From assembly GCA_028753945.1 (NCBI GenBank), contig JAPNXP010000015.1, positions 3,038,001 to 3,102,000 of the forward strand: DNA of 64,000 bases. The letters are read 5' to 3'. Origin of the DNA: Hexactinellida sp. DTS-2022. Its lineage: Eukaryota > Porifera > Hexactinellida. The first letter of the stretch is position 1. The number at the start of each line of letters is the position of its first letter. The notes under the pieces were generated by a model, which saw only the letters and a list, made by a program, of their open reading frames with translations, searched no databases and was not told where the DNA came from. Both the position numbers and the translations under genes were made by a program. Below are positions 1 through 42,313 of this stretch, piece after piece.

Positions 1-3000
1 GAAGCGAGTGAGAAGAAGTACACGACTTCAGCTACAATATTGCAGTACTCACGAATCGGTGCATAACTTAACAACCCTACTACATGGCTAATTACAGAGA
101 GGGTAATGGCAAACCCCAAACTGAATTGAGCAATGTATATATCGCTCTCAGCTAATTTCCTTCCTAGCGAAATAATAAGGAAGATTGCCACAATCAAGCA
201 CAGCACAGAAGTTCCACACACAGCATAAATGACGTAGGTGAGAATTCTATCGATTGGATTGGATTCTAATATGGTCTCAGTTAGTACCATAAAAGTGGAT
301 AGATGGGTGCTGGAGCAGGTAATTGAATCGCGGTTTCTCTCATACACACTCAATCCGTGCTCGCTCCATCCTTGTGTAGCGGTATCCCAGTGGACGCAGT
401 AGGCATTGTAGTTACCATGCTCGGTGTTAAGAATGGAAAAGTTAAGATGAATAGGATCAATCAGTTGGTTTGGTAAATCTGTAGCCAGTTCTACCATTGC
501 GAGTGTGCTACCAGGTTCGTATTTCCCAAACGAGCCTGATGAGGAGCTGGTAAATATCTGGCCAAGTGTGTTGCTGTACAATACCGATACACCCAATCGT
601 GCATTGCTATCAAAAAGTGCGTTGGTTAGTGATGGTGGAAACGAAATGCTATTTCCTTCATAGGTGGTGATGGTTTGATTGCAATCAGAAATGACATTAA
701 AAGAAGAATTATTCATTTTAATTTCGATTTCTTGCACGGTCAACTGGACGTTGTCACTCAAAATGGAAGTGCAGGTGTCATTTGGCATTTTGATGTACGT
801 TTGAGCACTCATGGTAGCAAACAATTTCAAAGTATTAAACAGACTTAGTGTCATATTTTGATAATTTCCCGAGAAGAATTCTACATTTTGCATGCTAGCA
901 ATTGCGGAGAAAACACAAAGGAATCTTTCACTCAATGAACTAACGAGATTGGATTTCTCTTCACCATTATTCAAATTGCTTATTGAATTGAGGGCGTATT
1001 CTGTGAGGTTTAGAGACAACATGATTTCTTGCGGACTCAATATTGATCTTCCACACACAGTGTATGCAGTGCTCCGTACCACATCTGTAATGTTATTGAT
1101 ATCTATCTGAGTGGACTCCCCAAATATATCATCGTAATCGTGTAGATGAGTAGAAAGCAACTCAAATTGGGTCCTTATGCACTCTGCCATTTGGGGTGAC
1201 TCCCAGATTCCTGATTGAGAACATTTCCGAGATGTGTTGCCAAATACAAAGGATGGATCAATGTATTGACAAGGCATTACAGCTGTTTTGGAGTATCCTG
1301 TGGCCGGCCATTTTATTCGCGATATGGTTTCACTTTCACATGTCAACTCTTTGCCTGGGTATTGGCAATACCTGCCCTTGTATCCAAAGTAACAGGTACA
1401 ATCGAATTTTGTGACTCCATCGAGACACTCTCCTCCGTTTTCACATACAACATCTGCACAGTCGTTGATATTAATGTCACAGTTGTCCCCTTTGTATCCA
1501 TTCTCACATGAACAGACATATGTATCCTGGGTCGGATGACAAGTACCGTGTTGACAGGGGCTTTCGAGACATTTGTTTGGGTATTCGCAATCTGGTCCCA
1601 AATACTCATCAGTGCAGAAACATTCGTAATCATTTATGTGATCAATGCATGTTCCTCCATTTTGACAAGGCTCTGATGAACACTCGTTCAACTCTACTTC
1701 ACAGAATCGACCTGAAAATCCAGGGTAGCAATTGCAGGTGTAGTTGTTAATTTGGTCAATGCATTCACCGTGTTCGCATTCATGTGAAGTACACTCATCT
1801 ATATCATTCTGACAAATGACACCATCATAACCTGGTACACAATCGCAGGTGAATTCATTGGTATTTTTCGGTTTGCAAACGGCCTCATTCTGGCATGGAT
1901 CTTTTTCATAAGAACTGAAGTACCCGAAGCATTTGAGTCCCTCAGGGGATGTCAGAGCTTCAAGGGGTTCAGAGTACGGACCGTAACCAGCGCTTGTCAT
2001 TGCTCGCACCTTAATACTGTAGAGAGTAGACACAGTTAGGTTAGTGAGTGCGGTCTCAGGATTGGTACTATTGTACCTCATCAAAGCATTGCCGTTGGTA
2101 CTGTTGTACGTCATCAACGCACTGTTATTGGTACTGTTGTACGTCATCAATGCACTTCCATTAGTACTGTTGTACGTCATCAATGCACTGCCATTAGTAC
2201 TGTTGTACGTCATCAATGCATTATCATTGCGTGTATTGGACACAGTTGTGAGGGATATCTCGTAGAGTATTATTTCACCATTTCTAGTTTCTAACGGTAG
2301 TTCATTCCATTCCACATGAAAACCAGTTTCGATGTTAGTTATTAGTACATACTCTGGAGCGGCGGTAGGGTTAGTTTCCGGCATTGTGATGGTGGCGTAT
2401 GAACTCGGACCGTTTCCAACGATTGTTGACTGATGAAGACTGAAGTTGTATGTCACACTAGGATAGAAGTCTGAAAATGTGAAGTTAGTTCTATTAATGT
2501 CAATATTAATAGGATACAGGTCGGTATCTATCTTAGATCCTTGGTATGTGATAGTTTGGTGGATAATAATCCCGTTCCTTTCATCCTGAGAAACTGGAGT
2601 CCAAGTTAGCGTGACGGAAGAAGGCGACAGGACATGAGCTGAGAAGTTCCCTGGTGGTACACTCGGTATATCCTCCCACGTCTTAACACTAATCGTTTTA
2701 GAATTTGGACTATTTCCAATCACGTTGACTGCAAATACCAGTATTTCGTATACGGTGTGTGGTTCTAACGAGGAAAGCGTGACTTGGGTCGAGGAGTTAG
2801 TGGAGACACTTTCGAGTGTGTTATTCAAGTTGCGAACCCAGTAATACACGATATATTGGAGAATACGACCGTTCTGTTCAAGGATAGGAATAGGTTTCCA
2901 TGTGACGTGGATTTGTTCAGACGAGATGGCTGATGCATTGACATCTTGAGGAGGAGCTGTTGGTGCTATTGGGAATGTGGTGAGGTTTAAGGCCGTGCTG

Positions 3001-6000
3001 AGAGGGCCTGTCCCAATTAGTGTCATTGCTGAAATCTGGAATACATACTGTGTTGCTTCCTCCAAGTTTGTGAACGTGTACTCGGTTAAATTAGTAGTGA
3101 CGGTCCTATCATTGATGTGTAATACGTAGCCAGTAATTATCCCATTCTGGTCTTCTTCGTTCGGGGCAAACCAGTTCAGTTCAATCCAGGTTGTATTTAC
3201 TATGGAAGAAATGTACAACGGAGGACTACTGGGTTTACTTTGTGCAGTTTCAACGGAAATAATGGTACTCGGACTTGAACCAGCACTGTTGATGGCATCA
3301 ACACTAACTCTATACCGCGTGTACTCGTTCAGATTACGAACAGTTATTCTAGTCTCGCTAGCATCACTAATTGTGTCATACACTATCACACCGGTTGGTT
3401 CCTCGGTAACTAATACTTCATAACCAGTAATGGCTCCGTTTTGGACAGATTCAAGCGTGGCAGACCAAACAACGACAAAGGTGGTCGAGGTAATTGAATT
3501 CACCGAATCAATGCTTGGGCCTTCTGATGGCGCTTCTTCCCGAGTGGTGAAGTTTAGCGGAGCGGTGTACGGACCTGTGCCTGGAGAAGTTTCAGCTGCG
3601 ATCATAACTGAGTACTGAGTGTTTGGCATTAACCCGAGTAGTGTGTAGCTAGTTAGTCCTGCCTCGACTTTAATTGTTGATGCGGAAGAGGAGATGATGA
3701 GTTCGTAATGCCGCAGAATCCCATTGATTGCGTCATACGATACAGGAGTCCACCCTATAGTTACTGTGCGAGCTGTCACATTCCTGATGAGCAGTGAGCT
3801 GGGCGAAAATTCTGGAATGTCTTGCATGGTTTTTTCTGTTATTGCCAAGCTGAATGGACCAACTCCTGCCTGTGTTTTCGCAGCAACACGTGCGTTATAT
3901 TCTCTATACGGTTTCAAATTAGTGAATGTATACAGGTCGATATTACCTGCGAAAGATTGAGTAACTTTATAACTACTGGACACTGCGGTTAACTCAACGT
4001 CATATCCAGTGATAACTCCGTTCTGTCCCTGCTTTACAGGGGCCTTCCATAACACTTCTATCGAGGTTGATGAAATAGCTATGGTTGTGACATCTGATGG
4101 GGGACTCGTCGGTGCATCTTCTAGAGTTCGAATGGCTATCCAGTTAGAGTATGGCCCTGATCCAACTGAGGTGTAAGCACGAACTTGAATGAGATAAGTT
4201 TCGTCCACTACCAGCTGTTCCAGATTGTACTGTGTGATGTTGCCTACCATTACAGTTCTGTTGCTCGTATCCTCCAAAGTGCCAGCATAGTGCACTTCGA
4301 AGCTTGTTATTTCCCCATTGATATCAGCTGCTACAGGCGCATTCCACGTCAACAGGATGGTATCCTTGTTAGCAGATCCCTGCAGATCTCTCGGGGCTCC
4401 GGCTGGCGCGTCCTGATGCGTTCTCACTTCCACAGTGTTACTGTATGGCCCAGCCCCAATGCTATTGATCGCACGTACTTGCACCAAGTACCTTTCGAAT
4501 TCTTCCAAGTTAATGACAGATATAATAGTTTCGTTGGTCGAATATAGATGCGTTTGACTATCGTGTTGCGTGCCGTTCACACTGATTTCATATCTGAGGA
4601 TGGCTCCATTCGCTTGGTCTCCCAACAGAGGATTCCAGAATATTTTTATGCCAGTATCATGAAGTGCGATGGCATTAACTGATTGCGGATATCCAGTAGG
4701 CAGATTTTCCAGCGTTTGTTGTTCAGTTGCCTCACATGGGCCGTGCCCCTCGCTATTATAGCTACACACTACAACCGTGTACACCTCGCCTTCCTCTAAT
4801 CCGGATAATGCTACATTCGTATTGGGGGTTGTTACGTTACGTACACTAGCGTCGACACTATTTCCATAATACTGCACCCTATAGGCTATCGTGTCACTAT
4901 TCTGCTCCATTATAGGCGGTGGACTCCAACTCAATGACAGGGAAGTAGTTTGTATGGAACTGAATACGAGATTGCGCGGTGCGCCTGATGGAGCGGAGGG
5001 CAGGGTCTTCTGAATGGTAACTACTGAGTATGGACCTGGTCCTATCCTTGTCCTAATCCTCGCCTTAATACGGTACACGACGTTCTCCTCCAATTGAGTT
5101 AACCGGTAAGAGACACTAGTGATCGAATTGGTGTTTGGTTGGATATCTATCGTTTTGACTGTTTGGTCGATTGATTGCCCATAGTACACAACTTGGTACT
5201 CTGTTAATTCGCCGTTAATCCTATCGACAGATGGTGGAGTGAGTCTGATGGCTATGCTATCAACTGCGACATTTGTCACTGCTATTTGCGGAGGACTGAC
5301 TGGTGCTGCTTCTGCTGTCGTTGAGACGACTACGTCACTATATGGGCCTCTCCCACTGGAAGTCCTGGCTGCTATTCTAATTTGATAATCTGTGAATTCG
5401 TTCAAACTTGTTATGCTAAGTAACGTTACTGTTGAGGTAGAAATGGTTGTGTATGAATATACAGTGCTCTTCTTGTACAGTAGGGTGTAGCCAGTGATTA
5501 CTCCATTACGATCCTGGCCTGGGGGCGCTGCCCATTGTACCCTGAGAGAGTTCGAGGTGGAGGCAGTGACTCTCACATTTTGAGGCGGTGCGCTAGGGTA
5601 GCTTGTGGCAGTTCTTAAGGTGTAATAATTGGAATTATATGAGTAGAGCGTGCCTGTAGTCGTTACGTAGAATTTGTATAAGCGGTATGGTTTGAGTCCT
5701 GAACTTCTTGGGTAACTGCTCGTAGTCGGCAAATTCACTGCGTATTTGCCATTTCCGAAACTCAAGTCCTGAGCGTGTATTTGATTCGTCACACTCACGC
5801 TAGATGTTGTAGGTGTAAATCGCTTACTTACGCGGAAGTATGCATAGTTTGAGCCGTAATAGTGTAGTGATATGGACACCGTGAACTTAACTATATCGCA
5901 GGAGTAACTGCCGGATAGATAGTAGTTGGTATTACAACCGCAGACATAGCTTCCAACCTTGTTTGCACACGTGTGTTCACACAAATCGGTTCCAGCTGTG

Positions 6001-6523
6001 CATTCGTTAATGTCCACGCATCTCGTTGGGTAGTATAACTTTCGGTATCCGGGCAAACAGTCGCATTTGTATGTTCCAGGCTGATTAACGCATTTCTTAG
6101 GCGATGGACACAAGTTTGTATTTTCAGTACACTCGTTAATGTCGTAGCACGTATATCGATTGGAACTTAGTCTATAACCACTAATGCATCTACATGTATA
6201 GCTTCCTGCGGTATTGGTGCATTTCTGACTACAAACGTCCGGCGATCGATTACACTCGTTGATATCATTGCATTTTTTACTATTTGATGAATCCACGGAA
6301 TACCCAGTATAACAACTACAGGTGTATGACCCATATGAGTTTCTACAACGTTGATCACACCCACCATTGTTATTAGAACATTCGTTAATGTCAACGCATG
6401 AAGTACCTGATTTGATGAACCCAGTTTTGCAGATACATGTATACCCTCCCCCATTACCAATGTTACTGCAGGTCGAAGTCACCGAATTGCATGAGTGAGC
6501 TCCACTTGTACATTCGTTTATAT
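1..6523 (-). other. Receptor exon 4: EGF, FN3, EGF, HormR, GAIN/GPS and first TM helices
   Basis: One continuous open frame of 6.5 kb. From the right: five D-I-N-E-C calcium-binding EGFs (about 5910-6523); a degenerate FN3-like segment and about twelve FN3 domains of roughly 305 bp each (about 1950-5900), with the usual A-P-P start, W-x-x-P and Y-x-V-x-V-x-A motifs; five more EGFs (about 1345-1950); a HormR-like module ending G-x-W-x6-C (about 1180-1345); and a GAIN domain (about 295-1180) with many N-x-S/T sites. The GPS has A-Y-C-V-H-W-D and T-H-L-S-T-F, giving predicted self-cleavage between L and S near 299/300. TM1 and TM2 follow, then C-N-I-V-A-E-V-V-Y-F-F at the start of TM3. The second GPS Cys pair is reduced (C-S-S-T-H-L). 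So large an exon is unusual for this family. Confidence 0.85.
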
Positions 6524-9202
6524 CTAGTAATTAAATGTATTATAAATACGTACCTACATATTCTTAATTTATATACTATTCGTTTTAATATTTATGTTAT
6601 TACGAATTTTGGATAAAGTAAATTTTGAAACGATAGTAGACTTAAATTATATTTGTCATAAACAATTTTATAAAGCCATTTTCGTGAGAAAAATAGTGAC
6701 TCAAATGTGGTTGTAAGATACTTCATATTGTTATAAAGTTTTTAATATCAAAATATTTATTCTTCAGCCCATTTTTGGTTAATAATTATACGTAGTTAGT
6801 TAGAAATTAAAATAACTTGTGAACTTACCAATATTACAATATGATCCTTTCCACCCGCTATAACAAATCTTTCTTCCTGAACTAGAGCATGTGTAGTGTC
6901 CATTCGCGTCGTTTCGTGGCTTACAATAAGTGTTGCATAAGTTGCCATAGTAATACGAGTTACATGTAAATCTATTATGTATTGTATAAGAGGTTCCATG
7001 ACCTATTGAGTATGTCCTTTTATCCCAGGTAGAATCCACACTGTATAATGTTATTATCCGATTAGCTGATCCTAGATAATCATCTGCATTCGAGTCTTTA
7101 TCCCACCCCTCCATTACTAAGTTAAACCTCCCCTAAAGAGGTAATATTTAAATTATAATTAACAAAAGGCAAAAGAGTTCCCGGTATAAATCAAACGAGG
7201 ATTACTTTACTGGTTGGAACCAGGATGTAATTCATGTGTTTTTGATTTGTTTCTTTCTAGAGAGAAATTTGAAACAATCGCCATATAGTGCACAGAAGTA
7301 GTACAAAATCAGCAATTTAGCGTGTAAACTAAAGGATATTAGACTAGTTCATTTCAAATCTTGGATGAAACCTTGGTTAGGGCCCTGTTCGGGTTATATT
7401 GTGGCATTTAAGCTATCGTTAACTAACATATTTCGTTAATAAAACATGTTTATTGTTAACTACTTAACTTCTTGTTAAAATGAGACTAATTTATGTACTC
7501 AAGATTAAATTGAGGAATTTTCTTATTGTTAAATTCCTAGCTATAAAAGAAGAAAACTCTGCAAATAGAGTATATAAGAAATTGGTTGTAAAGCTAAAGT
7601 AACAAATTTTCGAATAAATATTCTCTCTTCTCATAAAGTAGTATTCCATAAAAACAAATAAGAGCAATTATTGCAGAGTTTAATGTTATTCATTTGGACT
7701 TTACCACGTTGAAGTGAGGAAAGTTAAATAATTTAAATTTAAATTTAATCAATATTTAACAATAAATATATAATCCAAACTTACAGAAAAGCTATTTGAA
7801 GTTGTAAAATCATACTTTTTGTTCATAGTCCCGGAATTCTTGCCTGAATAGTAGTAATGTGTGGTATAACTATCACAGCTGGAGAAACTGCTGTAGCACT
7901 CTCTGAATTTGAAATAGAAGTATGATTCGCATTCACGCCACGGCCACGGATCACAATAACTTCCATCATTAAGTTTCCCATGCGTATTGAACGAGTAAAA
8001 ATTTATTCCTACTGTTCCTGTATTCTCTACCACCACCTATAAATATAGTTAAATTAAACAATAATGCATTTAATTTATATTGTGTTATGTTGTATGTCGA
8101 AAAGAAATCTATACTATTAAAACTCGATTGTGTTGTTTGTTTGTTTGTTTGTTTGTCTGGATTGCATTAAAGTGATAAAAGAATAGAAACCGCATTTATA
8201 ATTGAGATAGAAACTAACTTCCAATTGTTAGAATAGGTAATCAAGTATTCTGAACACGAATTTTGCATTTTCAAATTTTATATGAATATTTATAGTTGTT
8301 GTTAACAAAAAAGGTAAACAAATTGATGAAATTCCAAATCAACCTAGAAGTTAGCTTTCAACGGGTATTATTGGTATTCGTTGTTTAAATACGTTGCCGG
8401 CTGTTTCTTTATATGCTAAAAGTTTTTTATAATCTAAAGTGTCCAGAAAGTGCCCCTTAAATTGCACTTCGTACATTTACATTCATTTAAGAGCTTAAAA
8501 TAAATAAAAACCATATTTTGATCCAATGACCGTCAAAAAACTCCCAAATTGATAAATTCGTGGTTTAAAGACGTTGTTGTAAACAAGTATGCTGATAATC
8601 AATTCCGTATTTTGAAATTATAATATGAATACTTATTGTAGTTGTTGTTGTTTACCAAAATAAATGAACGAATTTTGACTAACAGGTTATACTGCTTGTA
8701 ATTGAATAAATCCGATCATGTAGCGATTGGAAGATTTGTCGAGACCGAGACCGAAGGGCTCGTAATAGTATTAAATCACTTAAATGTGTCAATACTTATC
8801 AACTAGAGATTAGCATAGTTGCATTATACGTAACGTATAACGTGTATATGGTACCATTATACGATAGGTGAACGTATAATGCCACGTAACGTATAATCAT
8901 CATACAACGTATAACGTATAACGATTTTAACGAATATATGGTCCATTATACGTTCCCCGAACGTATAACGTATAATCGTATAATGCATCTATGGAGATTA
9001 GTACTATGGCATTATAAATATACTACCAAGTGGACCACGTTATACAGTACTCATAATACCATCTTATGTTCCTGATATATTCCTAATAATAAGTATAGTA
9101 TATATTAAATATGTATAATGCTATAATATAATTATACGTAATCACACTTACCAAATAGTGCAGAGAAAGCAATGAGAAAATCAATCCAATATAGACTCTC
9201 AT
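1..9202 (-). CDS. DSL-domain adhesion G-protein-coupled receptor, 5' part (gene continues past the left edge)
   Basis: Four exons read from the right: 9202-9152, 8036-7785, 7132-6829 and 6523-1. All splice sites are GT-AG and the phases agree (0, 0, 1), giving about 2,376 residues before the window ends. Domain order: signal peptide, MNNL, DSL, five calcium-binding EGFs, about twelve FN3 domains, five EGFs, a HormR-like Cys module, GAIN with GPS, then 7TM helices 1, 2 and the start of 3. MNNL and DSL are the Notch-binding end of Delta/Jagged ligands. GAIN/GPS and the 7TM bundle are the autoproteolytic and signalling end of adhesion GPCRs. I infer a cell-surface receptor that could bind Notch or a neighbour's glycoprotein and signal through G proteins. 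Helices 3-7, the cytoplasmic tail and the stop lie outside the window. The exon joins are inferred from sequence, not from cDNA. Confidence 0.85.
2062..2226 (-). repeat. Five tandem 33-bp units inside the last FN3 coding region
   Basis: Five in-frame copies (2062-2094, 2095-2127, 2128-2160, 2161-2193, 2194-2226) encode the 11-residue unit A-L-M-T-Y-N-S-T-N-G-S with small changes. Each carries an N-S-T glycosylation sequon. Because the unit is a multiple of three, copy number can change without breaking the frame. It lies between the strands of the FN3 domain nearest the second EGF block. Confidence 0.9.
6524..6828 (-). other. Receptor intron 3
   Basis: AT-rich intron between the DSL exon and the first calcium-binding EGF, with a gtaagt donor and a ttactag acceptor. 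I see no further gene in it. Confidence 0.75.
6829..7132 (-). other. Receptor exon 3: end of MNNL and complete DSL domain
   Basis: The exon opens with G-R-F-N-L-V-M-E-G-W-D, matching the end of the Delta/Jagged MNNL domain. It then encodes a DSL domain with cysteine spacing C-x8-C-x3-C-x11-C-x7-C-x8-C, as in Delta. Signature residues YYG, K-P-R-N-D-x2-G-H-Y-T-C and C-x-x-G-W-K-G are present. It ends after C-N-I in phase 1 and joins the next exon to complete D-I-N-E-C, the start of a calcium-binding EGF. DSL is the core Notch-binding module and is essentially confined to Notch ligands. Confidence 0.88.
7133..7784 (-). other. Receptor intron 2
   Basis: AT-rich phase-0 intron inside the MNNL-encoding region. 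It starts with gtaagt and ends with ctctttag. No coding or RNA gene was recognised. Confidence 0.7.
7785..8036 (-). other. Receptor exon 2: MNNL (Notch-ligand N-terminal, C2-like) domain
   Basis: Eighty-four codons between an acceptor at 8038-8037 and a gtaagt donor at 7784. The residues have the MNNL pattern: an amphipathic start (G-I-N-F-Y-S-F-N-T-H-G-K-L), then a cysteine at the position of the ligand's first C-C pair, then E-C-x10-E-C and a following C. In Delta and Jagged this domain contacts lipids and Notch EGF12. Similarity is by pattern only and no profile search was run. Confidence 0.72.
8037..9151 (-). other. Receptor intron 1, containing an interspersed repeat and a TATAACGT-rich tract
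   Basis: From about 8119 to 8760 this intron carries a reverse copy of the repeat that begins ACGAGCCCTTCGGTCTCGG and ends in a CAAA-rich tail. Other copies lie at 20.9, 31.8 and 45.8-47.5 kb. A second tract at 8820-8990 is built of ACGTATAA/TATAACGT motifs. No gene was seen in the rest. Confidence 0.65.
8820..8990. repeat. Irregular cluster of TATAACGT/ACGTATAA motifs
   Basis: Roughly a dozen copies of the 8-mer TATAACGT or its complement ACGTATAA occur within 170 bp, in both orientations and with variable spacing. This is not a simple microsatellite. It could be the core of a transposon with many internal sites, or a set of protein-binding sites. Confidence 0.7.
9152..9202 (-). other. Receptor exon 1: start codon and signal peptide
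   Basis: The ATG at 9202-9200 opens a 17-codon exon reading MRVYIGLIFSLLSLHYL, a hydrophobic signal-peptide core, followed directly by a gtaagt donor in phase 0. The next exon starts in phase 0 with V-V-V-E-N-T-G, so the signal peptide runs straight into the MNNL domain. This start was chosen because it supplies the secretion signal the extracellular domains need. The exon is too short to stand out as an open reading frame. Confidence 0.75.
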
Positions 9203-10968
9203 TGATTGATTATCCTATAAAATGTACACTAAGTAAAAAACTGCAAGATAAGTTGATATACTAGTTTATTTTTTCAACAAAAACTGACTGTATGATTTTT
9301 GTAAAAATAATCATACAGCCAGGTTCTTTTATTATGAACATTCAAGGGACCAAAAATTATGTTCATAATAGAGACTTCATAATAAGCGAACTCAATTTAA
9401 TACAAATCCTATGTAAGTTGTTAATTTGGACCATAGGCCTTGTTCATAATAAAAGCAAAACCTAAGCAAACCTGACTGTAATTTACTACAAAATTTTAAA
9501 CAGAGGTCATATAAAATAAACTTGTCATCATTCAGATTTGGGAAAATATGGAAGGCGGGTTGGATTTAATTTTGTTCAAAATAAAATACTTTAAGCATTA
9601 CCCTATACAATAAAGTTACCATTTCATTAAATAAGAGCATCACAATGCAATAAGTTAGTAAGTTAGTTTACTGTAATGTATTAGATAAACAGGAATAATT
9701 TTACACATAAAAATAGTAATAAATTAAATCGAGCGGATGGTAAAAATAGTAGTTACTTATTACATGGATGATGATTAGTATTTTTATGCTGTTTGCAAAA
9801 TAAACCAAAATATTTATATCAGATTATTACTAATTTCAACTAAAATACCAATAAATAAAATAATATTTTCTATTTACTAATTTAATTAACTAAATTATAC
9901 AATGTTATGTATCATACTAAGTATATACGTAAATATAACGTCAACAATGTAATATAATTCAGTATTTGTTCCAATCCAAAAGGATCATTATTTAATTACC
10001 TTGAAAAAAATTCGATATACAAACCAAGTTATCAAAAAACAATTTATACATGGGTTACTGATAAAGTGGCCAATACTTTTTATATATAAACCCTGGCTTG
10101 CTAGATGAAATAAATATAATTGATATTGCCTGTGCCCGATAATTACATTAGAAAAGGTGTTGGCCGAATATCATACGTATATAAATAATTAATTTATTAT
10201 AATAGGAATCTATAAACTCACTTGATTTGAAAGTTATAGCTGGGATAATTAACAAGTTTTAACAATGAAAATAATTGTTTTGTTCAACATTAAAGTAGAA
10301 GCGTCTATATATATATTTTACTTATGGAAATTGCGTCACAAATCACGTTTTGATATTCAATAGAGAGGCGGATTCTAGTCTACACATGAGTTTAATTTTA
10401 ATAAAATCTGCTTATAGTTAGGTAAATTATCTTACAATGTTAGCTATTTTCCCTGAACATAAGCACTTTATAAAATTTCAGTTCATATTACATTGGTACA
10501 GACTACAAATTTAGCTATCATTTAACTCGAGAGATATTTAATCTATTCCATAGTATATTATACATTTTAGCTTACATTTCTTTAAATGATTGTTCTTTCC
10601 TGTCAATATTATATTCGATATATGTTTAATGGCAGAATTACTAATATAGCCAGATAATAGGGAAAATATATTTTAATGTGATTTTTGATGCTGTTTCTCA
10701 TTAACTCACCAACTTAGATCTGGTTCAGTTTACATGCACTGCCTTTATTTTATTACAGATAATAGTAAGCAAGAAAATGCCGCTTCGCTCGGATAATGTG
10801 ATGGGAAATGGCTTTGAGTAACTTGAGGGCAATTTTGATACAATTGGACATGGAGAGCTTACGAGCACGAACAACAAAATATTACAAATTAACTCTTGAA
10901 AACAAATATTTTGCTTTGGGAGGTTTACCTGTAATGTCTAAATAGGCAAAATTGTCACTTTACTTTTA
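9203..10968. other. Intergenic stretch upstream of the receptor gene
   Basis: Very AT-rich and non-coding. It holds one TA-flanked transposon at 9316-9478 and otherwise nothing I can name. The receptor promoter must lie at its left end (minus strand), but no clear TATA box or initiator could be fixed. Confidence 0.6.
9316..9478. mobile_element. Short TA-flanked inverted-repeat transposon, CAGTCAGGTTC family
   Basis: Begins CAGCCAGGTTCTTTTATTAT and ends in AACCTGACTG, with TA on each side (9314-9315 and 9479-9480). Internal sequence contains repeated TTCATAATA motifs. The same family occurs at 14621-14818 and 49205-49406, with half a copy at about 54100-54179. The TA duplication and CAG...CTG ends suggest a Tc1/mariner/pogo-type MITE. 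Confidence 0.75.
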
Positions 10969-11085
10969 GCTACGGCCATACCATGTTGGCAACACCAGTT
11001 CTCGTCCGATCACTGAAGTTAAGCAACATTGGGCCAGGATAGTACCACGATCGGAGACGGCGCGGGAACACCTGGTGCTGTAGCT
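10969..11085 (+). rRNA. 5S ribosomal RNA gene (copy 1)
   Basis: Begins GCTACGGCCATACCA and ends GGTGCTGTAGC, which pair as helix I. It contains the conserved loop GTCCGATCACTGAAGTTAAG and the internal-control region for TFIIIA/Pol III. A run of five T follows as terminator. The 117-nt gene is identical to the copy at 59203-59319, and both share flanking sequence, which is unusual for isolated genes. Confidence 0.95.
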
Positions 11086-11500
11086 TTTTGACAAATTAGT
11101 GGATTTCCTATTCAAAGTTCCCTCATGGCAAAGTTTTTATTTATCTATTATAAATTTCTTTTTGCACTTTTACATTTTGAATACACAAACAGTATCTCGT
11201 ACACTGGGATTCGCGTAATAGCAAGGCGCAATGAGGACCGCCCCTACTCGAATTTGTATGATACCGTTATTTTATAATTCGATCAGTCGGCTCATAATAT
11301 AGGTCTATTTTCTGATATTGTTGAGTCATTTGTATTAAAATGTCCTGTTTAATTAAGGAATTATACTAATATTGGATTCAAGTGTTTTGAGTGAGTAAGT
11401 ATTCATGTAAATCACAAAAACAGTCGAATAACAACGGTTATAACATAATGTAATAAGCTAAATCTTTGTAAATTAAAATACAAATAAATTAATTCGAATA
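11086..11500. other. Intergenic stretch after 5S copy 1
   Basis: The first 50 bp match the downstream flank of the second 5S gene (through CCTCATGGCAAAGTT). The rest is AT-rich with no recognisable gene. Confidence 0.55.
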
Positions 11501-30414: not shown

Positions 30415-32383
30415 TTCCATCCCTGAAGTCTATATACAGTTACAAATTATATATCAAGCCGCATTTGCTTGAATTGAGTAGAAAATCACTGTCGAATAGC
30501 AGTTATAATCGCAATAAGATTTACCAAAACATGTAATAATTATAAATATAAAACTTAAGTTTAACAGTTACAAATTAGAAGGAATTGAATAATATATAGC
30601 ATTGAGCTACAGTTAGAAACTTCAGATTAAATTTCTTTATTTCCATAATCCTTGAGCCACTCCGGCTGGCCTTGCATAGTTAGACTTCCTTAAACTTTTT
30701 GGTGTACTTGTTGGTGGGGTTAATGCAAATGATTGTTATTGTAAAATGAATCCATAGGAACTTACTATTGCAAGTTGGGAAGCCAAATATATTTATTACC
30801 CCCTTGCATATTATGTTATCAAATTGCAAAGCACAAGAGCCCTACAGTTAAGATATCAGCGTTGGCTTCGCCATTTTACCCACTATTATGATATGTCCTC
30901 AATCTATCGACCAGGATAAACTTGCTCATTGTGACCTCCGATTGGGTCATTCAATTGAAATCCAAAATATTTAAAGAAATATTAATATTACCTATTATTA
31001 ATAAAATAATTTATGTAATTCATATATTGAATGTATCCCTTCAAATTTCAAAGTTCAAAAGTTCAGATTTTTATCACCATTCTAGCCACTTCTGCTAAAA
31101 TATTTCATCAAACTAAGGCTATCAAGAACTTTAGTGCCTAATATTAAATGAACTTTATTAGTCGATCTGGTAATTAGTTTACTATTGAACTATCTTATAT
31201 AGAATTGTTTGCGGAATAATCGTCTAGTGACAATGTATTGGTATAAATCTGTTAGTTTCTATATGGTCTTTATTATCCTTTGGTAATTGAATTATGCTCC
31301 TCAAGTGTTCATGCACAATTCAAATTTGGTAAGTATATAGAGAAGATGAACAATATAATTCACTTGAGTCAATTTCTTGTCATTGTTTTATCAACGTATA
31401 TTTCTACAATATCCAAGTAAGTTCCAAACGTTCATTGCCCATTATCTTTTCAATTTAATGTAGCATTATATAATATTATTCTTTTCAGGATTGAACTTAA
31501 ATATATACTACCTCGTTTTTATTTACTGGTATCTGTAAAACACCGTCAATTATTAAAAGTAAATACCAATCTGCTGATTTTTCCTTAAACATAACAATTA
31601 TGTTTTATTGATCAAGATCAATTGTATAATTATTGCAATAGTCTTTGATTATTTATTGTTTGTGGTGGCTTTTAGGATTTATATAAGTGACTTTCTAAAT
31701 AGATAACAATATGCGGTATGTTAAAAACACCATCTATTCATTTTTCATGATTTATTAGCCCTACAGTCTCGTTCGCTTCCGACGGATAACTCAACTGTTA
31801 CTCGATCTCGCTTTTGTATTTACATAAAACATTTGAAAATTTTGAATTCCTAATCAGCAACTATTTACCTTTTCTAACATTTGGTTGTCAATGGCTTGGG
31901 GTCTTAAGTATAAATATTAAAAAACCCAGTTTCACTTTCAATTTCAGTTGAAATTGAATTTACTTTAAGTTTCAGTTTTCAGATTCAAGAGTCCAAGCTT
32001 TGGATTTTTATAGATTTGTTTACCTCTTTTTGTAAACACCAAAAATCTTCACGTCAGAAATTTGCATACTTGAAATTCGTGTTCAGATAGTTGTTACCAT
32101 ACTATTACCGTGGAAACAGACTCTATTTCATTTTAAATTTTGACAAATTTTACCTCTTTTTGTAAATATACACAAACAACAATAGAGTTTGAATAATAGA
32201 GATTTAAAATTATCATGATATACTTTGCCTAACTTCTACAGTGTAGGGTAAGTAACTCATAAGATCCGAACGTAGGGAGCATAAACAAAAGTTTGTGAAC
32301 CGATGAGATACAATAACTAATTTTCGAACAAGTAAGTGGACGAGCATTTAAAATATTGAGCAGTATATCCTCTAGGAAGTGAG

Positions 32384-34723
32384 ATGAGAAAATTGAATGA
32401 CTTTGTGCTTCTAACAGCATGTCTGTGTATGCTATTGTTGCAACAGTGTGAAGCGAGATGTGAATCGAACAGTGTTGCTTCTAACGGGAAGAGGCGCTGT
32501 GTTGTGGACTGCAAGTTGGGCAATCGAGTGTGTGAGTGTGAAGCTGGATACGACGAATGCCAATTCTCCCTTGACATTGATGAAATGTATTCCTTCACCA
32601 GTTATGAGATTCTAGGAAATCAGGAAACACTGGTCCGAGGGTCACATGGCGTGATATTTAGTATCAACTCCACAGGACACGCTGTGCCCATTTCTACAAA
32701 CAGCAAGTGCAGTAATTATGAAAGCAACCCAGCATACAATTGCACTGTTCCCAACTGGACCAATGGTCGAGACTTCAAAGTGATCATAGGTGTGAATGGC
32801 CTGCTGCCAGGTCCCACTCTGATTGTTGATGAGGGATCCACAGTGATTGCACTTGTGAACAACAATCTGACTCAGGAAGCGACCTCTATCCACTGGCACG
32901 GCATGAGACAGTACAACACTCCGTGGATGGATGGCGCTGCAGGCATAACACAGTGCCCTATCAAACCGTCTTCTAACTTCCAATACACTTTTATAGCAGA
33001 ACCTTCTGGCACTTTCTGGTACCATTCTCACTTAGGAATGCAGAGAGCTGATGGCTGTTTCGGAGCACTAATTATCCGAGAGAGTCCGTCTAAGAACACT
33101 CTAGCTAGAGCAGTGCTTAGCTCAGATTTCGGCATCCATAGCTTTCATGATAAGCCAGATGTTCATACAGTAGTCGTGAATGATTGGTTGGTTAGAAGTG
33201 GAGTTGAAGATTTCCTTATTCAGAATGCTATATTAGGATACCATCCAAATGTTCCTCTAGGAGTTGTCCCGATTCCTGGTGATAATGCCTATGCACCATT
33301 GTTTACTTATGACCATGCCTCCTCGGCATTTTTTGAATTCCATTCGAACCTTATTAATGGCTTGGGGAGACACCGATCAGTTCCTTTTATACAATCTCGT
33401 ATTTCTGAATTCACAGTTAATTCTGGAGAAACTTATCGATTCCGATTGATTGGAGCACAAACACACTTCCTTTTCCGTTTTTCAATTGATGGTCATAAAT
33501 TAACTGTCATTTCCACAGATGGATACTTGATTGAGCCAATTAACAATGTTGATTACATCATCATTCACTCTGGTGAGCGTTATGACTTTCTCCTAACTGC
33601 CAATCAAACCATTTCTAACTACATAATAAGACTGGAGACGCTTGACCTAAACACAACTGGTGCTACTCCTCCTTTCCCACATCTGGGAGAGGGCACACAA
33701 GCTATCCTACACTACGCTACGGCAGTAGGAGACGGAGGCATTCCTTCTTCCAGCTATGAAGCTATATACGATGCGTCTCCAGAGACCGTGTGTGATGCAA
33801 CCAGTCCATGTAGAGTAGTCAACTGTCCGTTTGAGAACTTCCATCCTTCCTACCACTCCAACTGTATAAACGTAAGGGATTTCAGACTATTGCTAGCGAC
33901 ACCAGCTGATGAACTCCCTTCGGGAGATTCTCCTGATAACCAATTCTTCCTAAATTTCAATTTTGAAGCCCATGGCATAACTAGTTCTATCAATGGAAGA
34001 AGATTTGTCGCTCCACCCGTTCCTATGCTAACGCAACCAGAAGACTTCAGAGAACAAGCTACAATATGTGATCTAGCTGGTAGCTGTAACCCGAGTGATG
34101 TCCACTGTTTTTGTACTCATGTAATTGAGGTAGGATACAACAAGGTTGTACAAATGGTAGTTACTTCTGTCGGATTAATCCAGGTTGCTCACCCCTTTCA
34201 CCTTCACGGGCATCAGTTCCATATATTGAAAGTTGGCTATCCTACCTATAGCAATACAACTGGATTCTATGCAAGCGATAATTCAGATATACACTGTCCA
34301 GACCATACTTGCACTGAAGCTAATTGCTTTAGTCCTCATTGCACTCAACCTTCTTGGGCGAGTGGAGTGAATCCACTGTTAATAATTGATGGAAAGACTC
34401 CTAGAAAGGATACAGTTATGATCCCTTCAGGTGGATACTTAGTTATTAGAATTATCTCAAACAATCCTGGTGCTTGGTTCATGCATTGTCACATTCTCCC
34501 TCACTTTTTTGAAGGAATGGCTATGGTCTTCAATGTTGCTCCTGAGTATCATAACCCGCCTCCAGTTGGATTCCCCAAATGTGGGAATTTCAGGATTGAT
34601 TCGAATGAATTCTATGAGAAGTTGCAGTTTGTACCCAGCACTGGATATTTGATGACTTCTACTTTTGGATTCCTAGCTACCCTTTTCTATTCGCTATTTG
34701 TAGCAATTATCCATCTCGGATAA
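32384..34723 (+). CDS. Laccase-type multicopper oxidase, copy 1
   Basis: A single-exon protein of 779 residues. An N-terminal signal peptide (L-L-T-A-C-L-C-M-L-L-L) is followed by a Cys-rich leader (about residues 25-60, eight Cys) and then three cupredoxin domains. All four copper motifs are present: H170-W-H-G, W-Y-H214-S-H, H603-P-F-H-L-H-G-H, and H701-C702-H-I-L-P-H-x3-G-M, the final Met being the likely type 1 axial ligand. The tail is hydrophobic (last 25 residues), fitting a GPI anchor or membrane tether. Many N-x-S/T sites suggest an extracellular glycoprotein. The family oxidises phenols, diamines or metals with O2; the substrate here is unknown. It is the left arm of a palindrome and about 97 percent identical to copy 2. 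Confidence 0.95.
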   Translation: MRKLNDFVLLTACLCMLLLQQCEARCESNSVASNGKRRCVVDCKLGNRVCECEAGYDECQFSLDIDEMYSFTSYEILGNQETLVRGSHGVIFSINSTGHAVPISTNSKCSNYESNPAYNCTVPNWTNGRDFKVIIGVNGLLPGPTLIVDEGSTVIALVNNNLTQEATSIHWHGMRQYNTPWMDGAAGITQCPIKPSSNFQYTFIAEPSGTFWYHSHLGMQRADGCFGALIIRESPSKNTLARAVLSSDFGIHSFHDKPDVHTVVVNDWLVRSGVEDFLIQNAILGYHPNVPLGVVPIPGDNAYAPLFTYDHASSAFFEFHSNLINGLGRHRSVPFIQSRISEFTVNSGETYRFRLIGAQTHFLFRFSIDGHKLTVISTDGYLIEPINNVDYIIIHSGERYDFLLTANQTISNYIIRLETLDLNTTGATPPFPHLGEGTQAILHYATAVGDGGIPSSSYEAIYDASPETVCDATSPCRVVNCPFENFHPSYHSNCINVRDFRLLLATPADELPSGDSPDNQFFLNFNFEAHGITSSINGRRFVAPPVPMLTQPEDFREQATICDLAGSCNPSDVHCFCTHVIEVGYNKVVQMVVTSVGLIQVAHPFHLHGHQFHILKVGYPTYSNTTGFYASDNSDIHCPDHTCTEANCFSPHCTQPSWASGVNPLLIIDGKTPRKDTVMIPSGGYLVIRIISNNPGAWFMHCHILPHFFEGMAMVFNVAPEYHNPPPVGFPKCGNFRIDSNEFYEKLQFVPSTGYLMTSTFGFLATLFYSLFVAIIHLG

Positions 34724-35925: not shown

Positions 35926-38265
35926 TTATTCAAGATGGATGATCGCTACAAATAGCGAATAGAAAAGGGTAGCTAGGAATCCAAAAGTAGAGGTAATCAT
36001 ATAGCCAGTGCTGGGTACAAACTGCAACTTCTCATAGAATTCATTCGAATCAATCTTAAAATTCCCACATTTGGGAAATCCAACAGGAGGCGGGTTATGA
36101 TACTCAGGAGCAACATTGAAGACCATAGCCATTCCTTCAAAAAAGTGAGGGAGAATGTGACAATGCATGAACCAAGCACCAGGATTATTTGAGATAATTC
36201 TAATAACTAAGTATCCACCTGAAGGGATCATAACTGTATCCTTTCTGGGAGTCTTTCCATCAATTGTTAACAGTGGATTCACTCCACTGGCCCAAGAAGG
36301 TTGAGTACAATGAGGACTAAAGCAATTAGCTTCAGTGCAAGTATGGTCTGGACAGTGTATATCTGAATTATCGCTTGCATAGAATCCTGTTGTATTGCTA
36401 TAGGTAGGATAGCCAACTTTCAATATATGGAACTGATGTCCGTGAAGGTGAAAGGGGTGAGCAACCTGGATTAATCCGACAGAAGTAACTACCATTTGTA
36501 CAACCTTGTTGTATCCTACCTCAATTACATGAGTACAAAAACAGTGGACATCACTCGGGTTACAGCTACCAGCTAGATCACATATTGTAGCTTGTTCTCT
36601 GAAGTCTTCTGGTTGCGTTAGCATAGGAACGGGTGGAGCGACAAATCTTCTTCCATTGATAGAACTAGTTATGCTGTGGGCTTCAAAATTGAAATTCAGG
36701 AAGAATTGGTTATCAGGAGAATCTCCCGAAGGGAGTTCATCAGCTGGCGTCGCTAGCAATAGTCTGAAATCCCTTACGTTTATACAGTTGGAGTAGTAGG
36801 AAGGATGGAAGTTCTCAAACGGACAGTTGACTACTCTACATGGACTGGTTGCATCACACACGGTCTCTGGAGACGCATCGTATATAGCTTCATAGCTGGA
36901 AGAAGGAATGCCTCCGTCTCCTGCTGCTGTAGCGTAGTGTAGGATAGCTTGTGTGCCCTCTCCCAGATGTGGGAAAGGAGGAGTAGCACCAGTTGTGTTA
37001 AGGTCAAGGGTCTCCAGTCTTATTATGTAGTTAGAAATGGTTTGATTGGCAGTTAGAAGAAAGTCATAACGCTCACCAGAGTGAATGATGATGTAATCAA
37101 CATTGTCAATTGGCTCAATCAAGTATCCATCTGTGGAAATGACTGTTAATTTATGACCATCAATAGAAAAACGAAAAAGGAAGTGAGCTTGAGCTCCAAT
37201 CAATCGGAATCGATAAGTTTCACCAGAACTAACTGTGAATTCAGAAAGACGAGATTGTATAAAAGGAACTGATCGGTGTCTCCCCAAGCCATTAATAAGG
37301 TTCGAATGGAATTCAAAAAATGCCGAAAAGGCATGGTCATAAGTAAACAATGGTGCATAGGCATTATCACCAGGAACTGGGACAACTCCTAGAGGAACAT
37401 TTGGATAGTATCCTAATATAGCATTCTGAATAAGGAAATCTTCAACTCCACTTCTAACCAACCAATCATTGACAATTACTGTATGAACATCTGGCTTGTC
37501 AACAAAGCTATGGATGCCGAAATCTGAGCTAAGCACTGCTCTAGCTAGAGTGATCTTAGGCAGACTCTCTCGGATAATTAGTGCTCCGAAACAGCCATCA
37601 GCTCTCTGCATTCCTAAGTGAGAATGGTACCAGAAAGTGCCAGAAGGTTCTGCTATAAAAGTGTATTGGAAGTTAGAAGACGGTTTGATAGGGCACTGTG
37701 TTATGCCTGCAGCGCCATCCATCCACGGAGTGTTGTACTGTCTCATGCCGTGCCAGTGGATAGAGGTCGCTTCCTGAGTCAGATTGTTGTTCACAAGTGC
37801 AATCACTGTGGATCCCTCATCAACAATCAGAGTGGGACCTGGCAGCAGGCCATTCACACCTATGATCACTTTGAAGTCTCGACCATTGGTCCAGTTGGGA
37901 ACAGTGCAATTGTATGCTGGGTTGCTTTCATAATTACTGCACTTGCTGTTTGTAGAAATGGGCACAGCGTGTCCTGTGGAGTTGATACTAAATATCACGC
38001 CATGTGACCCTCGGACCAGTGTTTCCTGATTTCCTAGAATCTCATAACTGGTGAAGGAATACATTTCATCAATGTCAAGGGAGAATTGGCATTCGTCGTA
38101 TCCAGCTTCACACTCACACACTCGATTGCCCAACTTGCAGTCCACAACACAGCGCCTCTTCCCGTTAGAAGCAACACTGTTCGATTCACAACTCGCTTCA
38201 CACTGTTGCAACAATAGCATACACAGACATGCTGTTAGAAGCACAAAGTCATTCAATTTTCCCAT
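35926..38265 (-). CDS. Laccase-type multicopper oxidase, copy 2
   Basis: A 779-residue single-exon protein differing from copy 1 at about 22 residues, none in the copper motifs H-W-H-G, W-Y-H-S-H, H-P-F-H-L-H-G-H or H-C-H-I-L-P-H. The signal peptide, Cys-rich leader and hydrophobic C-terminus are all kept, so both copies look functional. It is the right arm of the palindrome; such arms exchange sequence by gene conversion, which probably keeps them alike. The promoter region (TTTAAAATATTGAGC and CCTCTAGGAAGTGAGATG) is also shared with copy 1. Confidence 0.95.
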   Translation of the reverse strand: MGKLNDFVLLTACLCMLLLQQCEASCESNSVASNGKRRCVVDCKLGNRVCECEAGYDECQFSLDIDEMYSFTSYEILGNQETLVRGSHGVIFSINSTGHAVPISTNSKCSNYESNPAYNCTVPNWTNGRDFKVIIGVNGLLPGPTLIVDEGSTVIALVNNNLTQEATSIHWHGMRQYNTPWMDGAAGITQCPIKPSSNFQYTFIAEPSGTFWYHSHLGMQRADGCFGALIIRESLPKITLARAVLSSDFGIHSFVDKPDVHTVIVNDWLVRSGVEDFLIQNAILGYYPNVPLGVVPVPGDNAYAPLFTYDHAFSAFFEFHSNLINGLGRHRSVPFIQSRLSEFTVSSGETYRFRLIGAQAHFLFRFSIDGHKLTVISTDGYLIEPIDNVDYIIIHSGERYDFLLTANQTISNYIIRLETLDLNTTGATPPFPHLGEGTQAILHYATAAGDGGIPSSSYEAIYDASPETVCDATSPCRVVNCPFENFHPSYYSNCINVRDFRLLLATPADELPSGDSPDNQFFLNFNFEAHSITSSINGRRFVAPPVPMLTQPEDFREQATICDLAGSCNPSDVHCFCTHVIEVGYNKVVQMVVTSVGLIQVAHPFHLHGHQFHILKVGYPTYSNTTGFYASDNSDIHCPDHTCTEANCFSPHCTQPSWASGVNPLLTIDGKTPRKDTVMIPSGGYLVIRIISNNPGAWFMHCHILPHFFEGMAMVFNVAPEYHNPPPVGFPKCGNFKIDSNEFYEKLQFVPSTGYMITSTFGFLATLFYSLFVAIIHLE

Positions 38266-38766
38266 CTCACTTCCTAGAGGGTATACCGCTCAATATTTTA
38301 AATGCCCATTCATTTATTTGCTCGAAATTTAGCTATCGATTATCTTTAGGTACCAAAATTTTGCTGACACGCCATCTTATGAGTTAGTTACCCTCACCTT
38401 AAAAGTTAGGCAAACTATATCATGATTGTTTCTAATTAATCTCTCATGAAAATTGAATTGATGTTATTTAATCAAATAGCCTAAAAAAGCCCCCACAAAC
38501 AATAAATAATCAGACTATTGCAGTAACTATTCTAACAGAAAATAACTCTTGGTATGAAATAACTTCCAAGATTGTACTATTTGATTATGGTAGGAATTAT
38601 CTCGAACTGAATCAATTAGATTTTGAAGATGATTACAGAATTTTTATGTTTAAATTAACATCAGCGTACCCCTATTTGAGGAATTTCGCATAGTAATTGG
38701 TATTTTCTTTTAATATTTGACCGTGTTTTTCCCAGATACCAATAAGAATAACGAGGCATATATTCC

Positions 38767-39814: not shown

Positions 39815-40385
39815 AACATTATCTGGGCAACCAGGCACACAACCACTCATGCTCCATTTTTGAGCAGTGGAGGAGGCGCTTATTAATGGTCTGCACATAA
39901 CCTGGGGCTTATCTTCGATAACTAGCGCAGCGGGGTTTGAAAACATCCAACGCTTGCAAATACTGTTGATCAATTAATTAGCTCCCAAATAACAACTAAC
40001 TGAACTGGATCAACTAAGTTAATTTACAAGCCACAATTAACTTAATTATTATGAGTGATATTTTGAGGAGGGTAAGGCCCGAAGCGGCCGTTAATTATGT
40101 TGCGAAGTGTCTAACACGAACGAACAAAGGTCGCGAAGCGACCGATACCGAAGGGTTCATGTTTTTTATATAGAGATAATTGTACTGCTATATTATTCAT
40201 ATATTATTCACAGGTAATATTTTCTATTTTATTTCCAAAAGAAATTGTAGATTACTGGAACTATTACCTAATGTCTTATAGTGAGCCAGAGACACTACGG
40301 TCTCCGACCCACGAGAGACTACTTATACTGTGACTCTGTGAGTGGTTTCGTCCCATTACAGGGACTCATCAGGAGGGTAACCCTC
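39809..40385 (-). mobile_element. Candidate hammerhead-bounded (retrozyme-like) element, 577-nt unit
   Basis: Two same-strand hammerhead motifs bound this unit. If both cut, a 577-nt linear RNA that could circularise would be released. The unit includes the block with CAGACCATTAATAAGCG and GGTTATGTGCAGACC also found in the palindrome centre, plus a CGCTTCGCG-hairpin fragment that may be a later insertion. It has no protein-coding capacity. The family resembles retrozymes or Penelope-type elements in using hammerheads; assignment is inferred. Confidence 0.5.
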
Positions 40386-40392
40386 GACCACC
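40341..40392 (-). ncRNA. Intact hammerhead ribozyme, type III layout, minus strand
   Basis: Minus strand: five-pair stem III (40392-40388 with 40345-40341), cleavage triplet GTC at 40388-40386, stem I GAGGG-TTA-CCCTC (40385-40373), CTGATGA at 40372-40366, perfect stem II GTCCC-TGTAAT-GGGAC (40365-40350) and GAAAC at 40349-40345. Every residue of the conserved core is present and all three helices form. Predicted cleavage lies between 40386 and 40385. It is 577 nt from the equivalent site at 39809/39808 on the same strand, the arrangement expected of a retrozyme-like unit. Confidence 0.82.
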
Positions 40393-40594
40393 TAGCAAGT
40401 TAGTCCGTCCGTTCTCAATTACCACCGTACTGCCGGGATCTTCCCCCTACTGCCGCTATACTAGGCTCTCACCATACCCCTGTGGTTCACAACAGTCTCA
40501 TATATAATAATGTTGTTGTGTCTAGTATGTATTTATTAGTCTACTCACATAGTATGTAAAATGAATTATTCCAGATTACATTTGTTTACATGTA

Positions 40595-41260: not shown

Positions 41261-42313
41261 TAAGTTAAGTTATTCCACACCAGTTATTAACAAAAATGTA
41301 ACCTACTGCTGCCTCACTGCACAATCGAGGTTTGGTGATTTAATCTTCACTTACATTATTTCTGAAATTGCAGGCTTTGATTAATCCAGTTCATCACTTT
41401 AGTTCTATTGGTGATCTATTATTAGCTTACGTCTATCACAGTATGCATAATATTACTACATACTTATTCATGTTGTTAACAAATCAATTTATTATGCAGA
41501 AGCTAATTGTTAGTTAATTATTATCATCAATATAATTCAGAGATTTGGGATATAACTGAAAATAAAGTGAGTTATAAAATATTAGTATTTATTTAATAGT
41601 TTTAGGTGTATCTGTTAGAAATTATCACAATCTTTTCATGAACTCTCATTTTAGTGATTCAATAAATATTGTCTTCACTTTTCAATTAAGTTCCAAGACA
41701 TTGCACCATCCCAATAATATCCGGATTTGAACTAGGTCTTTTAAAGGTTGTGAATTTCAGGGTATATTTTGTTATCTCAGAGGTTTCTTTAGGATATCCT
41801 CAATTAATTTTAATTTAGACTAAATACAAATACCAATAGAATTTGTAAAGTATTATGTTATTGGTTGAATTACAAACTTGTAACAAGACTGGGTTGGTGT
41901 CATGTCAGAGGAGAACCTGTTCCCAACAATATTTCCTAGGAAATGATGTCCCACTCTAGGGAATCTTCTTTCCTAGCCTTGGTTCAAGTGCCCAGCTTCG
42001 GCCGGGGGGTCCTAAGAGATGGAGAATAAAATGCCTTGCTTATCCAAGGGAAATATTGTTCTGGGGAACAGTATTCACTAGGAAATAATGTTCGGAGGAA
42101 CAAAATACAGGATTTACTATGACACTGGACGGGGGGCATAATTATGGCATTGAGAACAGACAAACACATACTACTCTGATTTGTTGTGTGAAATTATCTA
42201 TAAACGAAAGTCCATTTACAAAGTTGGCAACTCCTAAACTTTTAATTTGAAATTTCAACCATTGAAAGATTAAAGCATATATTTTTTAATAAAAATACCC
42301 TCTAGGAAGTGAG

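Follow-up and report, generated by a model that had tools for sequence, protein, structure and literature searches.

A predicted gene joining a Notch-ligand head to an adhesion GPCR in a glass sponge

In animals, Notch ligands and adhesion GPCRs belong to two separate contact systems, both of which depend on force. In the genome of Hexactinellida sp. DTS-2022, the initial annotation described exons in which an MNNL-DSL head of the Notch-ligand type leads into an adhesion GPCR, which raises the question of whether one chain carries both or whether two genes lie side by side. The locus was analysed in the window, the whole 64,000-nucleotide stretch at G000:C7:3038001-3102000, and in a scan of the genome assembly (G000; 112.4 Mb in 18 contigs, denoted by C-numbers, with the window on C7).

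Gene model and domain order

The gene was found on the minus strand. Its four exons, previously linked by their matching phases, lay where they had been placed, with GT..AG borders throughout and compatible phases (0, 0 and 1). The joined model of 2591 aa follows the domain order proposed for the locus: signal peptide, MNNL, DSL, EGFs, 12 FN3, EGFs, HRM, GPS (HL↓S, the arrow marking the predicted cut) and a complete 7TM. Within this order the HRM scored under its cut-off, and MNNL, unmatched by Pfam, was recognised by structure and profile alignments instead; the putative GAIN, likewise unmatched by Pfam, gave an alignment to solved ADGRF1. The features in window coordinates are as follows.

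9152..9202, minus strand: exon 1, signal peptide (MRVYIGLIFSLLSLHYL; hydropathy 2.19), ending in phase 0
7785..8036, minus strand: exon 2, the first portion of MNNL, the C2-like N-terminal domain of Notch ligands, phase 0 to 0; alignment to PDB Delta-like chains from residue 34 and profile match to fly Delta
6829..7132, minus strand: exon 3, which completes MNNL and carries the DSL domain, phase 0 to 1; its open frame by itself gave Pfam DSL 5.4e-17
6833..6964, minus strand: DSL domain, model residues 158-201; Pfam PF01414 positions 1-44 of 46, 2.9e-16
6524..6828, minus strand: intron 3, 305 bp, GTAAGT..ACTAG, GC 0.216
1..6523, minus strand: window part of exon 4, a single open frame with an EGF block, FN3 array, EGF block, HRM, GAIN/GPS region, TM1, TM2 and part of TM3
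1932..5908, minus strand: FN3 array stretch, fn3 3e-146, 12 stretches
1188..1355, minus strand: HRM (hormone-receptor-like) domain, 1.6e-4 and 22.5 bits, under the curated cut-off of 26.2
300..1187, minus strand: GAIN region with GPS; GPS 1.3e-7, ADGRF1 alignment 39-362, predicted HL↓S cut immediately ahead of the S codon at 299-297
1..248, minus strand: start of the 7TM (TM1, TM2, part of TM3); 7tm_2 2.4e-14, ADGRD1 1.7e-11 and hydropathy; the same exon carries the remainder outside the window (L008 9155-9800)

A profile check of MNNL, DSL, GAIN and 7tm_2 had been proposed with the initial annotation, and it bore out two of the four. Pfam matched DSL (2.9e-16) and EGF_CA (6.5e-7) in the joined head, EGF_CA (five stretches), fn3 (12 stretches) and EGF in the exon 4 part, and 7tm_2 (PF00002; 2.4e-14, profile 4-249 of 250) and GPS (PF01825; 1.3e-7) in the C-terminal part. 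The Pfam MNNL model did not match the window's copy, nor did Pfam GAIN at E <= 1; the GAIN region gave an alignment to solved ADGRF1 (over residues 39-362, 1.2e-4), and the 7TM matched ADGRD1 at 1.7e-11. Hydropathy analysis downstream of the GPS gave twelve windows, which merged by eye into seven segments, and elsewhere in the model the signal peptide was the only hydrophobic window.

The expected extension past the window edge was found in the flanking stretch L008, which overlaps the window exactly. The frame of the giant exon 4 continues to window coordinate -645 and completes the 7TM. Shortly past TM7, at -645, the tail frame breaks; the part of it severed by this break stays open as far as L008 8490 (L008 8490-9194). 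The tails of the relatives described below continue in frame there, many with NP-x-Y-like or NPF motifs, in an alignment that ends short of the very end; since the relatives run through, we read the break as peculiar to this assembly or allele. It leaves the head, GPS and 7TM unaffected. Introns that might reach the tail frame were also considered; many GT..AG pairs were present and none was outstanding.

Several other elements were observed in the window. A 33-bp coding tandem repeat of 4.8 copies (2061-2220), with NGSALMTYNST-like units rich in N-glycosylation sites, lies close to where the FN3 array ends. Three ORFs of 787-791 aa share a near-identical cysteine-rich start in the first 70 residues compared (32360-34720, plus strand; 35929-38289, minus strand; 42293-44665, plus strand), the middle one being inverted, and a type III hammerhead ribozyme (40340-40393, minus strand; 59.1 bits) lies between these repeated ORFs. 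Two 5S rRNA genes of equal score (10968-11086 and 59202-59320, both plus strand) are 48 kb apart and not adjacent.

One chain or two neighbouring genes

In the exon 4 frame the first Met was residue 539, which falls within the FN3 array; a signal-peptide-like stretch followed neither this Met nor the next five. Because exon 4 lacks a start of its own in its first 538 residues, an upstream coding exon is needed. A search of intron 3 for an alternative first exon gave one ATG frame of at least 13 aa (28 aa, phase-1 GT, GTCTAC), which did not have the look of a signal peptide. Trans-spliced leaders are described for a glass sponge in a passage of PMC10282587; spliced-leader joining at exon 4 was ruled out here by the 538 residues without a start codon.

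A collinear paralogue was found at a second locus, G000:C1:781839-789310, where exons of 54, 306 and 319 nt precede a giant exon, again with phases 0, 0 and 1, and the introns are 101, 650 and 67 bp long. The 2217-aa product comprises a signal peptide, MNNL, DSL, EGF, FN3 array, EGF, HRM, GPS (HA↓TSFTVL), one clear TM and a tail, with an extra borderline hydropathy window (1.93) at residue 1740, ahead of the GPS. Residues 345-2283 of the window model aligned to residues 213-1991 of the paralogue with 29% identity (1974 columns, 739 bits), and the two heads were 31% identical in a global alignment. The predicted product is a GPS-bearing Delta-like protein, which is unusual in itself. Its tail carries NPLY/NPIY/NPF motifs.

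Across the 112 Mb, the DSL model scored above its cut-off at seven places (13 candidates scored). The DSL ran into a collinear giant exon in the window's gene on C7 and at C1:0.78 Mb, and among the seven DSL neighbourhoods a 7TM followed on C7 only. At C1:10.73 Mb (from 10724257), MNNL, DSL, EGF and two FN3 were followed by sequence without a coding look, and the loci on C8 and C3 (two on the latter), as far as their sequence was displayed, looked by eye like conventional Deltas, about three in all, with EGFs, a single TM and a tail. The copy on C12 (G000:C12:2356210-2362185) has MNNL/DSL with broken frames; on the same strand, an 885-aa adhesion GPCR ORF (7tm_2 6.7e-31) ends about 1.8 kb before it. 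These seven places compare with the single Delta reported from two glass-sponge transcriptomes in a passage of Schenkelaars 2017 (PMC5684314).

The same order was also found in a related genome, as had been suggested as a check. P0015, a predicted 2788-aa NCBI protein of Oopsacas minuta (Hexactinellida) labelled only 'EGF-like domain-containing protein', resembles the product of the window's gene in having a signal peptide, DSL, EGFs, FN3 array, EGFs, HL↓S site and 7TM; it differs in having more N-terminal EGFs and in lacking the exon-2 part of MNNL, so the joint to that part rests on the loci of the present genome. Identity to the window model was 58% over residues 179-2562 and 45% over residues 102-411, and the exon 1 peptide is similar to MRISIGILFS of P0015. 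DSL was detected in P0015 at 1.8e-16 when the head was scanned alone, and a Pfam scan of the full-length protein did not list DSL, GPS or HRM. The joint between DSL and EGF was ungapped in the alignment, DVNEC directly following the DSL in P0015 and DINEC in the window's gene. According to a passage of the genome paper, Oopsacas genes were predicted by Braker/Augustus and mapped transcriptomic reads (PMC10280926).

A 617-aa query that starts where the FN3 array ends and stops in the 7TM, at the window's edge, found 1195 proteins at E <= 0.001. Among the best 120 of these matches, nine cover 100% of the query and list 7tm_2, and five of the nine list GPS; their identities were 92% (P0001), 79% (P0004), 78% (P0005), 73% (P0009), 70% (P0010), 68% (P0012), 67% (P0014), 63% (P0015) and 54% (P0039). 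The occurrence of P0015, from a hexactinellid, among the nine makes a glass sponge the most likely host. In P0009 and P0012, intron-like sequence was seen by eye in the open frame before LDLNEC, at the same joint. A search of the protein database with the head gave 220 candidates, none at E <= 0.001, and among 14 candidates for long proteins with an Oopsacas-like head, Oopsacas was the only one, so the head was encountered in one other species only.

We conclude that the locus very probably holds one fused gene, with a DSL ligand head on an adhesion GPCR, on the grounds of the exon phases, the startless exon 4, the collinear paralogue and the predicted Oopsacas protein. It had been accepted from the outset that the fusion would fall if the DSL exons formed a separate gene ending before 6523, or if the two parts met through an assembly join. 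Precedent for mere neighbourhood exists on C12, where an adhesion GPCR and a decayed MNNL/DSL copy occur within 2 kb. Exon 4 of the window's gene, however, cannot start itself; its order and phases are repeated at the second locus, where the third intron is 67 bp; the predicted Oopsacas protein holds DSL and 7TM in a single chain; and the window contains no N. Two adjacent genes, or a join made in assembly, are accordingly highly improbable. The earlier observation, a DSL head on an adhesion GPCR, is confirmed, and the case for it has become stronger.

Ligand head, cleavage site and possible signalling

The outermost part of the predicted gene product is a Notch-ligand head. Its DSL (Delta/Serrate/LAG-2) domain (PF01414, 2.9e-16) was the top scorer of the seven places in the genome (63.4 bits). 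MNNL ahead of the DSL was recognised through alignment of model residues 34-201 to the solved Delta-like chains 4xl1 and 4xlw (phmmer; 6e-13 and 8e-13) and through a six-row profile of this genome's heads, covering MNNL and DSL, which matched fly Delta (5-206) at 2e-27 and Jagged-1 at 2e-25. Residues 94-201 also matched solved DLL1 at 4e-18. Pfam MNNL itself matched at two places in the genome, both on C3 (3 candidates scored); the same weakness of this model in sponges is noted in passages of Schenkelaars 2017 (PMC5684314) and of Richards and Degnan 2012 (PMC3482393). Since MNNL and DSL are reported from a choanoflagellate too, in a passage of PMC6040629, DSL alone is no proof of animal origin.

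The DSL loop of the window's gene reads CKPRNDANGHYTC, with P-R-N-D kept. The Phe that precedes G-H in all three solved ligands compared (DLL1, fly Delta and Jagged-2) is replaced by Asn, and the same position is Tyr in P0015. None of the six aligned heads of this genome has Phe there, the other five having other residues; the decayed C12 head was left out of this alignment. We take this Phe to face Notch and to be important for it.

In agreement with an adhesion GPCR (class B2), the gene has a secretin/adhesion-type 7TM with a GPS site of the H-L/T-S type directly before TM1. The GPS sequence is CSSTHL↓STFMVL, in which STFMVL is the conserved agonist-like sequence. The site is HLS in eight of the nine relatives and HIS in P0039. 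Positions 3 and 6 of such tethered-agonist-like stretches are important and hydrophobic, and both are retained as such in the window's gene, the paralogue and the nine relatives. From these features we infer a fit to a self-cutting adhesion GPCR that would be activated by loss of its N-terminal part, and adhesion-type GPCR signalling by the fused protein is likely. The genome-wide scan gave at least 71 matches to 7tm_2 (exon pieces), 27 to GPS, and a Notch-type gene on C18 with two LNR and ankyrin repeats and with NODP under its cut-off.

Based on these predictions, the following mechanism is proposed. The protein would cut itself at HL↓S, with the halves staying held together, and its MNNL-DSL head, on the tip of the long EGF-FN3 stalk, would bind a partner on a neighbouring cell; Notch is the likeliest candidate, with some other surface protein as the second choice. 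Under tension, this bond would pull off the N-terminal part and expose STFMVL, which would activate the 7TM and, in the head-bearing cell, a G protein. With Notch as the partner, Notch on the adjoining cell would be opened by that same pull, and the contact would report both ways. We give this whole account, that is, the fused gene together with a self-cutting, tension-activated adhesion GPCR whose head binds Notch or another partner, a probability of about 0.55; the figure covers the entire statement and overlaps with the alternatives, three of which share the fused gene. The HL↓S site, the conserved STFMVL, the full 7TM and the presence of Notch in the genome favour this functional account, and the Asn in place of the loop Phe counts against it. 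Notch is a plausible candidate partner, and two-way signalling with Notch as that partner, in which a pull on Notch would at once activate Notch in the receiving cell and, by opening the GPS, a G protein in the sending one, is put forward tentatively, at clearly less than even odds. If that reading were true, the one-TM sister gene would be a GPS-bearing Delta.

The fused protein could play other roles. The Asn at the loop position, together with the lack of Phe in six of six aligned heads, would suit a head that is an adhesion module only and binds itself or a partner other than Notch, and a passage of Richards and Degnan (PMC3482393) states that, in the Deltas of Amphimedon, the essential binding sites of the DSL have not been conserved. 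Such a role is nevertheless doubtful, as the window's DSL is the best of the seven in the genome (63.4 bits), P-R-N-D is retained in its loop and Oopsacas has Tyr at the Phe position. Alternatively, the head might act on Notch in cis or in trans with the 7TM relaying nothing, the protein being a DSL ligand on an adhesion-GPCR stalk that does not signal through G proteins. The C1 paralogue, which retains the head, FN3 stalk and GPS with only one clear TM, fits this: it keeps the agonist-like sequence without TM2-7, so the head and stalk may serve without G proteins. A parallel is described in a passage of Post et al. 2025 (PMC12255766), where the DSL protein LAG-2 is bound in cis by the RBL and GAIN domains of LAT-1, independently of G proteins. 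Retention of the 7tm_2 match and of the agonist-like sequence in the window's gene and its nine relatives argues in the other direction, since it suggests that the 7TM is under selection, and we regard the silent 7TM as unlikely.

The GPS is of the cleavable type, and shedding of the N-terminal part could give a soluble Notch ligand or decoy; the frame past exon 3 meets a stop in intron 3 after about ten codons, and read-through of that intron could yield a short secreted MNNL-DSL protein. In other adhesion GPCRs, however, the cut part usually stays attached, and nothing specific was found in support of either product, which makes them quite improbable. The tension-activated receptor proposed above is the reading that we prefer.

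Comparison with known systems

Searches of the open-licence PubMed Central literature gave no description of a DSL domain on a GPCR. The term DSL did not occur in the main texts of Krishnan 2014, the 2025 eLife GPCR catalogue, the Oopsacas and Aphrocallistes genome papers or the 2024 Notch orthology study (PMC11594159), and its four mentions in the first 300,000 of the 412,533 characters of a 2026 adhesion-GPCR review all fall in passages on LAT-1/LAG-2 or in a reference. Unusual DSL arrangements have been described earlier, namely DSL-only genes and MNNL with 3 DSL in cnidarians, and the passages concerned mention no GPCR part (PMC2770060).

Like the window's gene, Delta/Jagged ligands, including AmqDelta1-5 of Amphimedon, have a signal peptide, an MNNL-type cysteine pattern, a DSL domain and then EGFs (AmqDelta4 being without EGFs). 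They are described as single-pass proteins in a passage of PMC3482393, whereas seven passes were found in the window's gene. Sponge and other adhesion GPCRs of the EGF/FN3/HRM kind (Krishnan 2014; the C10 gene of this genome) share its EGF, FN3, HRM, GPS and 7TM parts. Elsewhere in this genome, the GAIN-7TM part was best matched by a 785-aa HRM-GPS-7TM ORF on C10, with EGF-like cysteines at the N-terminus by eye; DSL was not matched in this ORF. The GAIN/GPS region gave sequence matches to CELSR1, ADGRF1, BAI3 and latrophilin, which resemble the window's gene in this part, as does ADGRD1 in the 7TM. To our knowledge, none of these five receptors carries MNNL or DSL.

The present data add DSL-bearing genes to the glass sponges. 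These animals are reported, in passages of PMC5684314 and PMC10280926, to be without Wnt ligands, and unusual contact receptors in them are therefore of developmental interest. With both contact systems in a single chain, reverse signalling by a Notch ligand would also become open to direct testing.

A functional parallel is LAT-1 and LAG-2 of C. elegans, where an adhesion GPCR and a DSL ligand work together on one cell (PMC12255766), as the two parts of the window's gene may do. According to the same passage, these are two separate proteins, bound via RBL/GAIN, and G proteins are not needed, whereas the sponge gene is predicted to encode one chain. The presence of both parts in one sponge chain, taken together with the LAT-1/LAG-2 pair, renders it less implausible that DSL ligands and adhesion GPCRs are functionally linked, and the sponge gene would be a natural fused counterpart to this C. 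elegans cis pair.
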